From Ruania alkalisoli (lineage in GTDB: Bacteria; Actinomycetota; Actinomycetes; Actinomycetales; Beutenbergiaceae): 64,000 nucleotides of DNA. The stretch covers positions 2,203,581 through 2,267,580 of the forward strand of contig NZ_CP063169.1 of assembly GCF_014960965.1 (NCBI RefSeq), written 5' to 3'. The notes under the pieces were generated by a model. The model saw nothing but the letters and a program-made list of their open reading frames with translations. It was not told the DNA's origin and did not search any database. Positions 13,530-20,542 of the stretch are shown piece after piece; position 1 is the stretch's first letter, and each line of letters starts with the position of its first letter. The position numbers were made by a program, and so were the translations under genes.

Positions 13530-13958
13530 TCAGCCGATCAGATGGAACAAAGCCAGGCCCCCGAGACCGATGAGGGCGGCCCACAGGTACGAGGCGAGCG
13601 TTCCGACGAGGAACCGCTCGGCGACGTTGGCATGGCCGTCCAGAGAGCGGAACCGTCCCAGGCCCTTGATCGCGACGATGACGGCTATCCCGGCGGGGTA
13701 GCCGACGAGGATGCACCCGGTGATGGCGAACCGTTCGAGAATCCCGATCCACAGTCCGCCGCGAAGAACCTCCGCGGCTGTCGGCTCCGGCTCGAGCGCC
13801 TGCGCATCCTCTGGCTGATCTCCTGGCTCATTCTCCGGCTCGGTGCGCCGGGCGATACGGCCGAGCAGCCATCCCGTCAGGGGCGCGCCGACACCGGCGG
13901 AGACACCCAGGGCAAGGCAGGCGACGGCCACGGTGAGGAGAATCTCGCCGACGTTCAT
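13530..13958 (-). CDS. Small multi-pass membrane protein paired with SatD-family regulator
   Basis: A 142-residue protein with about four predicted membrane segments: residues 5-35, and then the stretch [30 protein letters not shown] and the C-terminal helix [23 protein letters not shown] charged Glu/Pro-rich cytoplasmic loop ([14 protein letters not shown]) lies between helices 1-2 and the core. I know of no assigned function. Its ATG overlaps the stop of the SatD-family gene by 4 bases, so the two proteins are almost certainly made together, probably as a sensor or effector and its regulator. A stretch of 100 bases without features separates it from efp. Confidence 0.75.
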
Positions 13959-14575
13959 GATGCCTGCTTAGCAGGCTTGTCCAACGACGCCAGGAGGCGC
14001 TCCGCGAGGGGGTGGACTGCGCGCTCTTCATCCCACATCGCGGTCCGCAGCCGGTCGCTGACGGCCTGGGGAGAGATGCGCAGCTCGGCAGCGATCTCGC
14101 GCCCGGTGCCACCGGTGGCCATCAGCAGGTCGATCGCCTCCCACCCGGCTGTGGTGCGTCGTCGCACCACAGAGGCGAGGAGCTGGAGCAGGGCCTCGAC
14201 CTCACCGGCACTGTCGTCATCGTCGGCGGTGACAGCCATCGGGACCGGGACCGTGCGACCGCGCGCGCGTTCGACAGCCTCACGAGCGTGGAGGAACGCC
14301 GGACCCGACGACGCCCGGGAGCTCTCGGCGAGGGGACGGTCCACCTCCCCCACGCCGATGCCCACGCTCCAGTCCTGGCGGCGATGCAGTGCAAGGACGA
14401 TCCGGAGAGTACTGGCAGCCGATGCCAGGACGCCTTGGATCTCGTCGCCCACCGTGCGCTCGAACGGCAGCGTGAACTCGAGGTCGGTACCGATGTGCTG
14501 CAGGTGTTCCAGCGTCTCGGGAACGAGATCCCCTCGACGCCGGGAGGCGTTCTGGTCGGCGGTCACGACGAACAT
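13955..14575 (-). CDS. SatD-family protein with C-terminal helix-turn-helix
   Basis: A 206-residue protein whose N-terminus (MFVVTADQNASRRRGDLVP) and middle (LPFERTVGDEIQGVL, DWSVGIGVGEVD) match the SatD family, named after an acid-tolerance operon of streptococci. The C-terminus holds a helix-turn-helix at about residues 157-178 (GREIAAELRISPQAVSDRL), so DNA binding is likely. ATG 14575 has no close Shine-Dalgarno sequence; GAAGGAG sits about 22 bases upstream. Three palindromes at a 28-base period occupy the promoter region, suggesting autoregulation. It overlaps the downstream membrane-protein gene by 4 bases. Confidence 0.75.
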   Translation of the reverse strand: MFVVTADQNASRRRGDLVPETLEHLQHIGTDLEFTLPFERTVGDEIQGVLASAASTLRIVLALHRRQDWSVGIGVGEVDRPLAESSRASSGPAFLHAREAVERARGRTVPVPMAVTADDDDSAGEVEALLQLLASVVRRRTTAGWEAIDLLMATGGTGREIAAELRISPQAVSDRLRTAMWDEERAVHPLAERLLASLDKPAKQAS

Positions 14576-14577
14576 GA

Positions 14578-14653
14578 ATCAAGGTTAAGGCACTGATCTC
14601 CTTCTATCAAGGCCTATACCTTGATGCCGGACAATCAAGGCTCTACGCCTGAT
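14578..14653 (-). promoter_or_regulatory. Triple palindromic operator array before the satD-like gene
   Basis: Three copies of ATCAAGG start at 14578, 14606 and 14634, exactly 28 bases apart. Each is followed, after 6 bases, by the inverted half-site CCTTGAT or a 5/7 match: CACTGAT at 14591, perfect CCTTGAT at 14619, GCCTGAT at 14647. So there are three 20-base palindromic units, the middle one with perfect arms. The array fills the 67-base gap between aroQ and the satD-like gene, the first unit ends 3 bases from the start codon, and the third enters the 3' end of aroQ. This is what a repressor with several cooperative sites would look like; which protein binds is inferred. Confidence 0.65.
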
Positions 14654-15083
14654 GTACCAAAGCCTGGAGGGCCAGGCGATAGGAATCGACACCGAAACCC
14701 GCAATCGTTCCCGTGGCGACGCCCGCGATCACGCTGGTGTGCCGGAATCGCTCTCGTGAGGCTGGGTTGCTCAGATGCACCTCGATCAGGCGCAACCCGC
14801 CGGTGGTCACCTGGGCGGCCGCATCCCGCAGCGCATACGAGTAGTGGGTGAACGCCGCCGGGTTCAGCACCACATCCCGGCGCGTATCGACTGCTTCGTG
14901 CAGCCATGCCATCAGCTCAGCCTCGTCGTCGGTCTGACGCACCTCGGCCTCACAACCCAACTCGGCGGCCCACCCGAGCACCCGCTGGGCCAGGCCGGGG
15001 TGATCCAGGTGGCCGTACACGTCCGGCTCCCGGCTCCCCAGACGGCCCAGGTTGGGACCGTTCAACACCAGCACGTCAGTCAT
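14643..15083 (-). CDS. aroQ: 3-dehydroquinate dehydratase, type II
   Basis: Third step of the shikimate pathway. The 146-residue dodecameric type II enzyme shows LNGPNLGRLGSREPDVYG with catalytic Tyr23, NPAAFTHYS at 74-82 and EVHLSNP at 101-107 with the catalytic His103. Length is normal. ATG 15083 lies 3 bases beyond the aroB stop, making it the last gene of aroC-aroK-aroB-aroQ. Its final codons overlap the third palindrome of the satD-like operator. Confidence 0.96.
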   Translation of the reverse strand: MTDVLVLNGPNLGRLGSREPDVYGHLDHPGLAQRVLGWAAELGCEAEVRQTDDEAELMAWLHEAVDTRRDVVLNPAAFTHYSYALRDAAAQVTTGGLRLIEVHLSNPASRERFRHTSVIAGVATGTIAGFGVDSYRLALQALVHQA

Positions 15084-18760: not shown

Positions 18761-20542
18761 ATGTTCGAAGACCACTCGTCCACCCGCTCTGGTGAGGGGC
18801 CCGACGGCGTCCCCTCCCCAGGTGGTGGCCTCGCCACACTGCGTGGCCGGGTGGATGCGGCGAGGGACGTGGACCGCGGCACACCGGGGTGGTCGTTCGA
18901 CGCCTCCTGCTCGCAAGCAGCAGAAGTGGTGGCTGAGGCTCCGGCCGGAGCGGAACTGCTAGGCCTACTGGAGGCCGAGGTCGACGGGATGAGGACTCCG
19001 GACGAGGGGTTGCTGATCGAGTTGATCGCCGCCGCGGACCGGATCGTGAACCGAGCCGGCGCGTTGCAGGCAGCATTCGTCGCCGAGCTGATGGAACGGC
19101 GGCAGGGTTCACGCGGGATTTCGCACACACGCGATGAGATCGCGCTTCGGCTGGCGACCACGGGCCACGCGACCGAGACCCTGGTCGGACGCGCAGCCGC
19201 GTTGGCCGAGGCGCCCGCCGTGGCCGATGCACTGGGGCGCGGGCTCATCACGACCCGCAAGGCGGACCTGATCACCGACGCGACCGAAGGGATGGAGCTG
19301 GCCGCCGCACTCACCCTTCAGGAGCACGGAGCCGCCTACGGGCAGGAACACACGCCCCCGCAGCTGCGGCGCGAGCTGGAGGCGGCCGTACTCGCCGCCG
19401 ACCCGGCCGGAGCCCAGCGTGAGCGTGAGAAGGCCCACGCCCGGCGGCGGGTCATGTTGGAACCGACGCGGCACGAGATGGCCTGGGTCGGTGCCTACGT
19501 GCCGGCTGCGGAAGCCGTCGCTGCCTACACCTGCGTCGACACCCTCGCCGCGGACACCACCGCGGACGACGACCGCACCCTGGACCAGCGCCGCGCCGAC
19601 GTGTTCACCCAGATCTTCCAGGAAATCCTCGCCACCGGGCATACCCCCGGCGGGCGCACACTCCCCGAACGCCACGGCCGCCGCGCGGCCGTCCACGTCA
19701 CGGCGACCGTCCCCGTGCTCGCTGGCGATGACGAGACGCCCGCGGTACTGCATGGATATGGGCCGATCTCGGCTGCCTCGGCGCGCCGACTGGCTGGGCG
19801 CGCACCGGCAGGCGACGGCGCCATCGGGGCTGCGCCTGGGACAGGAGCGGCTCCGGTGTCCGCGCCGACGCTCCGGGAGCTCCTTGATCCGATGCGGGAG
19901 TTCCTCCCGCGGCGCCGGTCGCCGGACCTCCCGGACGGGAGCGATCCGAGGGCGACGGTGGCGTGGATGCGCCTGCACCGACTGGGCAACCCGGGACAGT
20001 CACGGGTCAGCCACTCCTCAGTCACCACTCGTCCGATCACCACGGCTGCGGACCCTCGGGCAGGGCCGAGCCCTCCGCGTCGCGAGAGTGGTGTCACCGA
20101 TCCGGTGACCGTGATGCGGACAGAACTCGGGCTTGTCTGCACTGACGGCTACGCGCCCTCACGTCGCTTACGCGGCGTTGTGGTCGACCGTGACCGGACG
20201 TGTTGCTTCCCGGGATGCCTCGTGCCGGCGTGGCGGTGCCAGATCGACCACATCGTCCCGTTCGACCCAGCCCTGCCTGCGTGGGCGCAGACCGTCGAGA
20301 CGAATCTGCAGGCGTTGTGCCGCCACCACCATCAGGGCAAGACCGAACGCGCATTCTCGGTCGAGCGCGACGCGTGGACCGGGATCACCACCTGGCGTAC
20401 TCGCACGGGGCATGTGTACGTGCGGCTACCTGAGCGCAGCGACTACACGGCGCTCAGTGAGCAACTCCGCGACGATGTCGCGGCTACCTGGACCGGTGAG
20501 GAGGACGCTGGCGACGTCAGGCACGCGCCAAGGAGTCGGTGA
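18761..20542 (+). CDS. DUF222/HNH endonuclease-domain protein (13E12-repeat family)
   Basis: A 593-residue protein with an N-terminal DUF222 region (about residues 60-330) and a C-terminal HNH nuclease domain (about 485-550). The nuclease has CCFPGC for a zinc site, then CQIDHIVPFD and TNLQALCRHHHQGKT supplying the His-Asn-His set, all intact. The family is abundant and often multicopy in actinobacterial genomes and is thought to include mobile or selfish nucleases; its cellular role is not established. ATG 18761 follows AAGGA. It is the only plus-strand gene between 0 and 28.8 kb, and its end overlaps the end of aroE by 26 bases. Confidence 0.85.
   Translation: MFEDHSSTRSGEGPDGVPSPGGGLATLRGRVDAARDVDRGTPGWSFDASCSQAAEVVAEAPAGAELLGLLEAEVDGMRTPDEGLLIELIAAADRIVNRAGALQAAFVAELMERRQGSRGISHTRDEIALRLATTGHATETLVGRAAALAEAPAVADALGRGLITTRKADLITDATEGMELAAALTLQEHGAAYGQEHTPPQLRRELEAAVLAADPAGAQREREKAHARRRVMLEPTRHEMAWVGAYVPAAEAVAAYTCVDTLAADTTADDDRTLDQRRADVFTQIFQEILATGHTPGGRTLPERHGRRAAVHVTATVPVLAGDDETPAVLHGYGPISAASARRLAGRAPAGDGAIGAAPGTGAAPVSAPTLRELLDPMREFLPRRRSPDLPDGSDPRATVAWMRLHRLGNPGQSRVSHSSVTTRPITTAADPRAGPSPPRRESGVTDPVTVMRTELGLVCTDGYAPSRRLRGVVVDRDRTCCFPGCLVPAWRCQIDHIVPFDPALPAWAQTVETNLQALCRHHHQGKTERAFSVERDAWTGITTWRTRTGHVYVRLPERSDYTALSEQLRDDVAATWTGEEDAGDVRHAPRSR

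Follow-up and report, generated by a model that had tools for sequence, protein, structure and literature searches.

Introduction

The operator of phage lambda cI is an example of a multi-site autorepressor operator. Phage repressors can be dual-acting, in that they both activate and repress, and class II activators are centred near −40.5. The SatD family (PF16264) derives its name from a streptococcal sat operon, and the titles and abstract openings of the literature matches listed give neither a DNA site nor a regulatory role for it. Here we describe a SatD-like gene within 64,000 nucleotides of the Ruania alkalisoli genome (contig NZ_CP063169.1; this whole stretch is called the window). Like the cI operator, the locus has three phased palindromes over what appears to be the regulator's own promoter. 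In contrast to cI, however, the half-sites recur at 14-base steps, with gaps inside a palindrome as long as those separating palindromes, the promoter hexamers overlap half-sites, and the mRNA is predicted to be leaderless.

Results

A SatD-like protein with a helix-turn-helix, and its membrane partner

The SatD-like regulator (206 aa) is encoded at 13955..14575 on the minus strand and is 97% identical to that of R. rhizosphaerae. It matches PF16264 over residues 33-178 (E 3.3e-7; 30.6 bits against a cut-off of 29), and 40 of 48 aligned relatives match this family at E ≤1 (best 5.4e-10). Several helix-turn-helix (HTH) models match at C-terminal residues 145-188; taken by itself, the window protein gives weak matches that miss the cut-offs (best E 0.006). 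Matches are stronger in relatives, 41 of the 48 matching Sigma70_r4 at E ≤1 (best 3.2e-6). The HTH resembles the Sigma-70 region 4 or GerE type, but the SatD-like protein is not a sigma factor, and the half-sites of its putative palindromic sites vary from lineage to lineage. Seventeen of the 18 PDB sequence matches at E ≤10 lay over the HTH and none was informative on the N-terminal part; the remaining match, a copper oxidase (E 1.8), falls outside the HTH and looks like chance.

The N-terminal part may be a class III cyclase-like domain. In hhalign comparisons with a class III cyclase profile of 21 domains, the SatD profile gave a probability of 67% and the class-level SatD profile one of 56%, compared with 0.4% for the membrane-partner control. 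The aligned stretch of the class III cyclase domain (PF00211) comprises the VGDE hairpin together with the GIGVGEV (GIGxGxV) strand. D7 and D44, which are invariant in the 48-sequence alignment, can be read as counterparts of the two metal-binding aspartates; N replaces D7 in a group of paralogues outside that alignment. A search for PF00211 itself gave no match in the window protein or elsewhere in its genome.

A small protein of 142 aa, assigned to the membrane from its hydrophobic sequence, is encoded at 13530..13958 on the minus strand and overlaps the stop of the SatD-like gene. Homologues were found in 78 of the 80 loci compared below: 74 immediately follow the SatD-like gene and share its strand, and four lie elsewhere in the locus (one of these on the opposite strand). 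In the remaining two loci the contig ends. All 30 class-level loci contain a related domain; in 29 it was placed on the SatD strand, the best-covered stretch lying ~1.0-1.3 kb downstream of the SatD start. The protein carries the motifs RGGxWIGxLER ... AVKGLGRYPELR ... ERFxIGTLxS and has no Pfam family. A suspected resemblance to the end of DUF3307 proteins did not hold up, and an assignment to DUF3307 (PF11750) was rejected after no match was obtained in the window protein, three relatives, four class-level proteins or the R. alkalisoli genome. A defence system was also discarded as a candidate, with no PADLOC match for either regulator or membrane partner.

On the minus strand the gene order is aroB-like ORF, aroQ, array, SatD-like gene, 142-aa membrane protein, efp and nusB-like ORF, where the names of the aroB-like and nusB-like ORFs are our assumption. 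The upstream neighbour aroQ (type II dehydroquinase; 14643..15083, minus strand; PF01220, E 2e-47) is not part of the system. Adjoining the aro cluster is a 593-aa ORF (18761-20542, plus strand) with an HNH-like motif near its end, presumably of the 13E12/DUF222 type.

Three palindromes form an array with a 28-base period

The 67-base gap upstream of the SatD-like gene holds six hexamers, ATCAAG or CTTGAT in alternating orientation, one per 14 bases (ATCAAG n8 CTTGAT n8 ATCAAG n8 CTTGAT n8 ATCAAG n8 CTTGAT), so that palindromes recur with a period of 28 bases. ATCAAGG occurs at 14578, 14606 and 14634, and the 20-base units beginning there contain 2, 0 and 2 mismatches, which confirms the three palindromes in strict 28-base phase reported in the first-pass annotation of this DNA. 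Because the SatD-like gene and aroQ both lie on the minus strand, the promoter reads on that strand, with unit 1 closest to the SatD-like gene. Unit 1 (14578..14597, minus strand; centre ~−12.5) covers the putative −10 element. Unit 2 (14606..14625, minus strand; centre ~−40.5) is perfect, and its proximal half-site CTTGAT holds most of the putative −35 element. The distal unit 3 (14634..14653, minus strand; centre ~−68.5) overlaps the end of aroQ and is the least conserved unit in relatives.

Some details of the annotation had to be adjusted. Its 6-base spacer applies to 7-base arms, and with hexamer arms the spacer is 8 bases both within and between palindromes. Unit 1 had been described as touching the start codon and in fact begins two bases off. 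Unit 3, placed inside aroQ, does overlap that gene, but only in its last codons and stop. The view that such even spacing is far from chance held up well: the array departs from the ideal in 3 of 36 half-site letters, and among 200 dinucleotide shuffles of the whole window none came below 13. Furthermore, the palindrome pattern allowing up to three mismatches had 8 matches in the window where 0.58 were expected.

The array is conserved upstream of SatD genes

A contig scan found 202 relatives, of which the best 80 were used. One of these (L099) was left out of the counts, its matched start disagreeing with the other loci, and the set therefore comprises the window and 79 relatives (80 loci). 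Counted from the start codon in 79 loci, CAAG peaked at −76 (15 loci), −48 (39) and −20 (40), and CTTG at −64 (22), −36 (56) and −8 (40), making −36 the commonest half-site core. The array threshold was defined as a score of at least 18 of 24 over four half-sites at fixed positions, which 0.33% of 8100 shuffles reached. It was reached by 68 of the 80 loci, and several of the 12 loci below it show, when read by eye, the same array displaced by one base. Aligning the regions upstream of SatD homologues, the check proposed with the annotation, thus bears out conservation of the array at strict phase. The array was kept in 40 of 43 loci with aroQ directly upstream and in 27 of 36 without, and it is therefore a feature of the SatD gene. 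When the start point was left free, 28 alone stood out among periods of 20-36 (mean best score 21.6 versus 16.2-17.7), both for the Micrococcales set (n=80) and for the class set (n=30).

Among 80 further loci (L218-L297), 28 reached the array threshold, or 27 of 79 once L225, identical to the first-set locus L112, was excluded. Distant paralogues had either no array or apparently a single palindrome. N7 in place of D7 (TINQ for TADQ) was observed in the SatD proteins of L243-L246, L248, L251-L253, L255, L256, L260, L262, L266, L267 and L270. Those in family f6 often adjoin a second SatD gene of the same genome; the N7 loci fall below the array threshold, and several contain one palindrome such as CAACCGATATCGGTTG near −35, as read by eye. 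Separately, four SatD matches in the order (L195, L206, L208 and L217) have one in-frame stop in an open frame.

The array probably contains a leaderless promoter

The putative −10 hexamer, TAACCT (TANNNT class), lies at 14582..14587 on the minus strand, 6 bases before the ATG, and the putative −35 hexamer, TTGATA, at 14605..14610 on the same strand, 17 bases from the −10 and in a position fixed relative to the start codon. TANNNT was present at exactly −12..−7 in 58 of the 80 loci, with every other tested offset below 12 loci; TTG occupied −35..−33 in 67, and both occurred together in 55. No SD-like pentamer was found within −16..−4 in any of the 80 loci. The AAGGAG at 14598-14603, 23-28 bases before the ATG, is too distant for a usual Shine-Dalgarno sequence. 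From the distance between −10 and ATG and the lack of an SD-like pentamer, we infer that transcription starts at the A of the ATG (14575, minus strand), and that the array contains a leaderless, sigmaA-type promoter of the SatD-like gene. An E. coli-type promoter scan found none, because TAACCT, which matches TATAAT in only 3 of 6 positions, is below the threshold of that scan.

In unit 2, the half-site nearer the gene houses the putative −35, and its counterpart in unit 1 contains the end of the putative −10. If equivalent half-sites of neighbouring units contribute the −35 and the end of the −10, the 28-base period would follow from the 17-base promoter spacer.

Half-site letters follow the recognition helix

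The recognition helix, as placed by the HTH model matches, includes residues 169-174 (P169, Q170 ... D174; codons at 14054..14071, minus strand). By normalised mutual information, the top columns of the whole protein were 169 against base 2 of the half-site, 170 against base 3 and 174 against base 6. The two arms change together: positions −49/−32 read T-A in 35 and A-T in 28 of the 80 loci, giving 63 complementary pairs against a shuffle mean of 34.8, with T-G in only 2. In this first set, base 2 was A with Q169 (28/28 called), while E, P, A or V at this residue went with T (38/38), and base 6 was G with Q174 (58/58 called) and C with K or R (4/4). The window and its nearest relative, L039, which combine D174 with G at base 6, stand outside the rule, and base 3 was uncallable in the four first-set loci with S170.

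The loci L218-L297, chosen before their upstream DNA was seen, served as a held-out set (79 loci after the exclusion of L225). Proteins of the 27 array loci in this set are at most 75% identical to any first-set protein. In covered and callable cases, the first-set rules agreed with 21 of 21 letters at base 2 and 19 of 19 at base 6; base 6 was uncallable in three of the six R174 loci, two of the four S174 loci and the single N174 locus. Residues outside the rules brought new letters, G with R169 (3/3) and T at base 3 with A or G at 170 (3/3).

On a tree computed from the alignment minus its HTH columns, two changes each were counted for base 2 and residue 169, and five each for base 6 and residue 174. 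Supported independent pairs agreed in 1 of 1 (base 2) and 3 of 3 (base 6), numbers at which sign tests cannot reach significance. Because changes on the tree are few, independence of the residue-letter relation from ancestry is not significant. Control columns failed to follow base 6 (175, 0.15 of 3; 41, 0.3; 144, 0.7; 179, 0 to 0.7), and two performed nearly as well as 169 on the single base 2 pair (159, 0.99 of 1; 109, 0.9). The residue-letter code thus appears consistent and predictive, with its independence from ancestry only partly shown. The agreement between array letters and the recognition helix encoded next to them points to the SatD-like protein as the binder.

Arrays away from SatD genes are at control level

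The 4.45 Mb genome (one contig) contains a single copy of the perfect 20-mer. Arrays of two palindromes with up to three mismatches were confined in this genome to the present locus (2 overlapping places; 1 place for a reversed control pattern). Single sites with 1 mismatch in 12 half-site letters numbered five outside the array, all within mechanical ORFs of at least 299 codons.

Across 59 relatives' genomes, 43 of which have a SatD-like protein match, the two-palindrome array at up to three mismatches was found at 46 places in 27 genomes. By coordinate comparison, 33 of these places (24 genomes) adjoin SatD, the one in G024 being off phase. The other 13 places are at chance level, since the control search with the reversed pattern returned 16, spread over 16 genomes. 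All 16 places with no or one mismatch adjoin SatD, as do 10 of the 12 with 2 mismatches. The 16 genomes without a SatD match in that scan had one array among them, with 3 mismatches; two of these genomes, G055 and G052, have a divergent SatD in other searches. A scan for further copies had been suggested together with the operator reading, and it returned no second array in the genome and copies unrelated to SatD only at control level. A wider regulon was considered and rejected: the single sites in the own genome sit within long ORFs, and the two extra 2-mismatch places in relatives (G006:C5 and G001:C1) overlap mechanical ORFs and do not adjoin a SatD gene.

Arrays with other letters in the wider family

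A PF16264 search across the class found SatD genes in 59 of 394 genomes, and the 30 best loci were examined. Families f22, f45 and f17 have arrays of the form ATGAAG n7 CTTCAT, with the 28-base period and letters other than those of the window; f29 (one locus) has a CTTAAC-type array, and f19 has AT-rich, less regular repeats. A free-start score of 21 was reached by 23 of the 30 loci and by none of their shuffles. In f22, the promoter as read is TATAGT, TATAAT or TATGAT followed by 6 bases and ATG, and one palindrome lies beyond this likely start codon (class-level SatD loci among L160-L186). Such arrays, which overlie a promoter like that of the window and run past the likely start codon, fit repression. 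In the phylum set, SatD was present in 18 of 296 genomes; by eye, CTTCA or CTTAT repeats were seen in L306 and L309, and no such repeats in L302-L305, L308 and L310.

Discussion

We consider it likely that the array is the operator through which the SatD-like protein regulates, and most probably represses, its own operon with the membrane protein. The first-pass annotation had proposed an operator for the SatD-like product, and comparative sequence evidence supports this proposal, in that the array is conserved upstream of homologues and its letters track the recognition helix. Since the array is conserved, follows the DNA-reading residues and contains the probable promoter, the gene is most likely switched by its own product. 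SatD-like dimers would bind the palindromes side by side, and the bound dimers would occlude the −35 and −10 elements; occlusion would repress the operon of regulator and small membrane protein. More speculatively, a cyclase-like N-terminal domain might respond to a nucleotide-type ligand, or to what state the membrane partner is in, and so release the repressor.

The most serious alternative is that the protein acts as an autoactivator or exerts dual control, contacting RNA polymerase from unit 2 to activate and filling unit 1 at high concentration to repress. Unit 2 is perfect in the window and centred at ~−40.5, the distance of a class II activator; the window −10 matches TATAAT at only 3 of 6 positions, and the CTTG of −36 is the commonest half-site core (56/79). 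Against this, unit 1, which covers the putative −10, is conserved about as well as unit 2 (CAAG in 40 and 39 loci, CTTG in 40 and 56 of 79), and class-level arrays reach past the likely start codon, so that we regard activation as unlikely, though with a real chance of being correct. It is a good deal less probable that another transcription factor binds the array and that the SatD-like protein is merely its target. DNA letters could indeed follow a co-inherited regulator, but the recognition helix tracks them better than any other column of the SatD-like protein. Moreover, such a factor would have a single target, because arrays away from SatD are no commoner than the control (13 versus 16 in 59 genomes).

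Control at the RNA level, in which the palindromes form hairpins in mRNA reading through from aroQ, seems more improbable still. A folding energy of −32.1 kcal/mol (z −3.9) for this strand is what inverted repeats would give, yet the array would not be part of the gene's own mRNA, since the putative start is at the ATG. The changes at −49/−32 are mainly full T-A to A-T swaps (63/80, only 2 T-G), Rfam gave no match and the half-sites co-vary with HTH residues. An RNA structure or riboswitch was rejected as a candidate on the negative Rfam result and because a strong fold is expected of inverted repeats and leaves the HTH covariation unexplained. Finally, only the shortness of the motif speaks for chance or for a mobile or structural repeat. 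We give this almost no weight: the 200 shuffles never came near, the genome holds no second array, the position is fixed to the start codon across genera, and we count the period of 28 and the threshold counts as refuting it.

Beyond autoregulation at this locus, we put forward only tentatively, and with more doubt than conviction, that SatD proteins are a widespread, undescribed group of actinobacterial one-component regulators. Such proteins would join a class III cyclase-like sensor to a sigma-region-4-like HTH, have a membrane protein partner and be dedicated to their own operon, with half-sites doubling as promoter and specificity readable from residues 169 (Q for A; E, P, A or V for T; R for G), 170 (Q for C; A or G for T) and 174 (Q for G; K or R for C). 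The SatD-like operator would provide the first testable DNA target and role for a named, little-studied family, together with a specificity rule that predicted loci outside those used for making it. Its design would be compact, in that operator period and promoter spacing become one constraint. If the sensor part is cyclase-like, a nucleotide-binding fold would be tied directly to one-component gene control.
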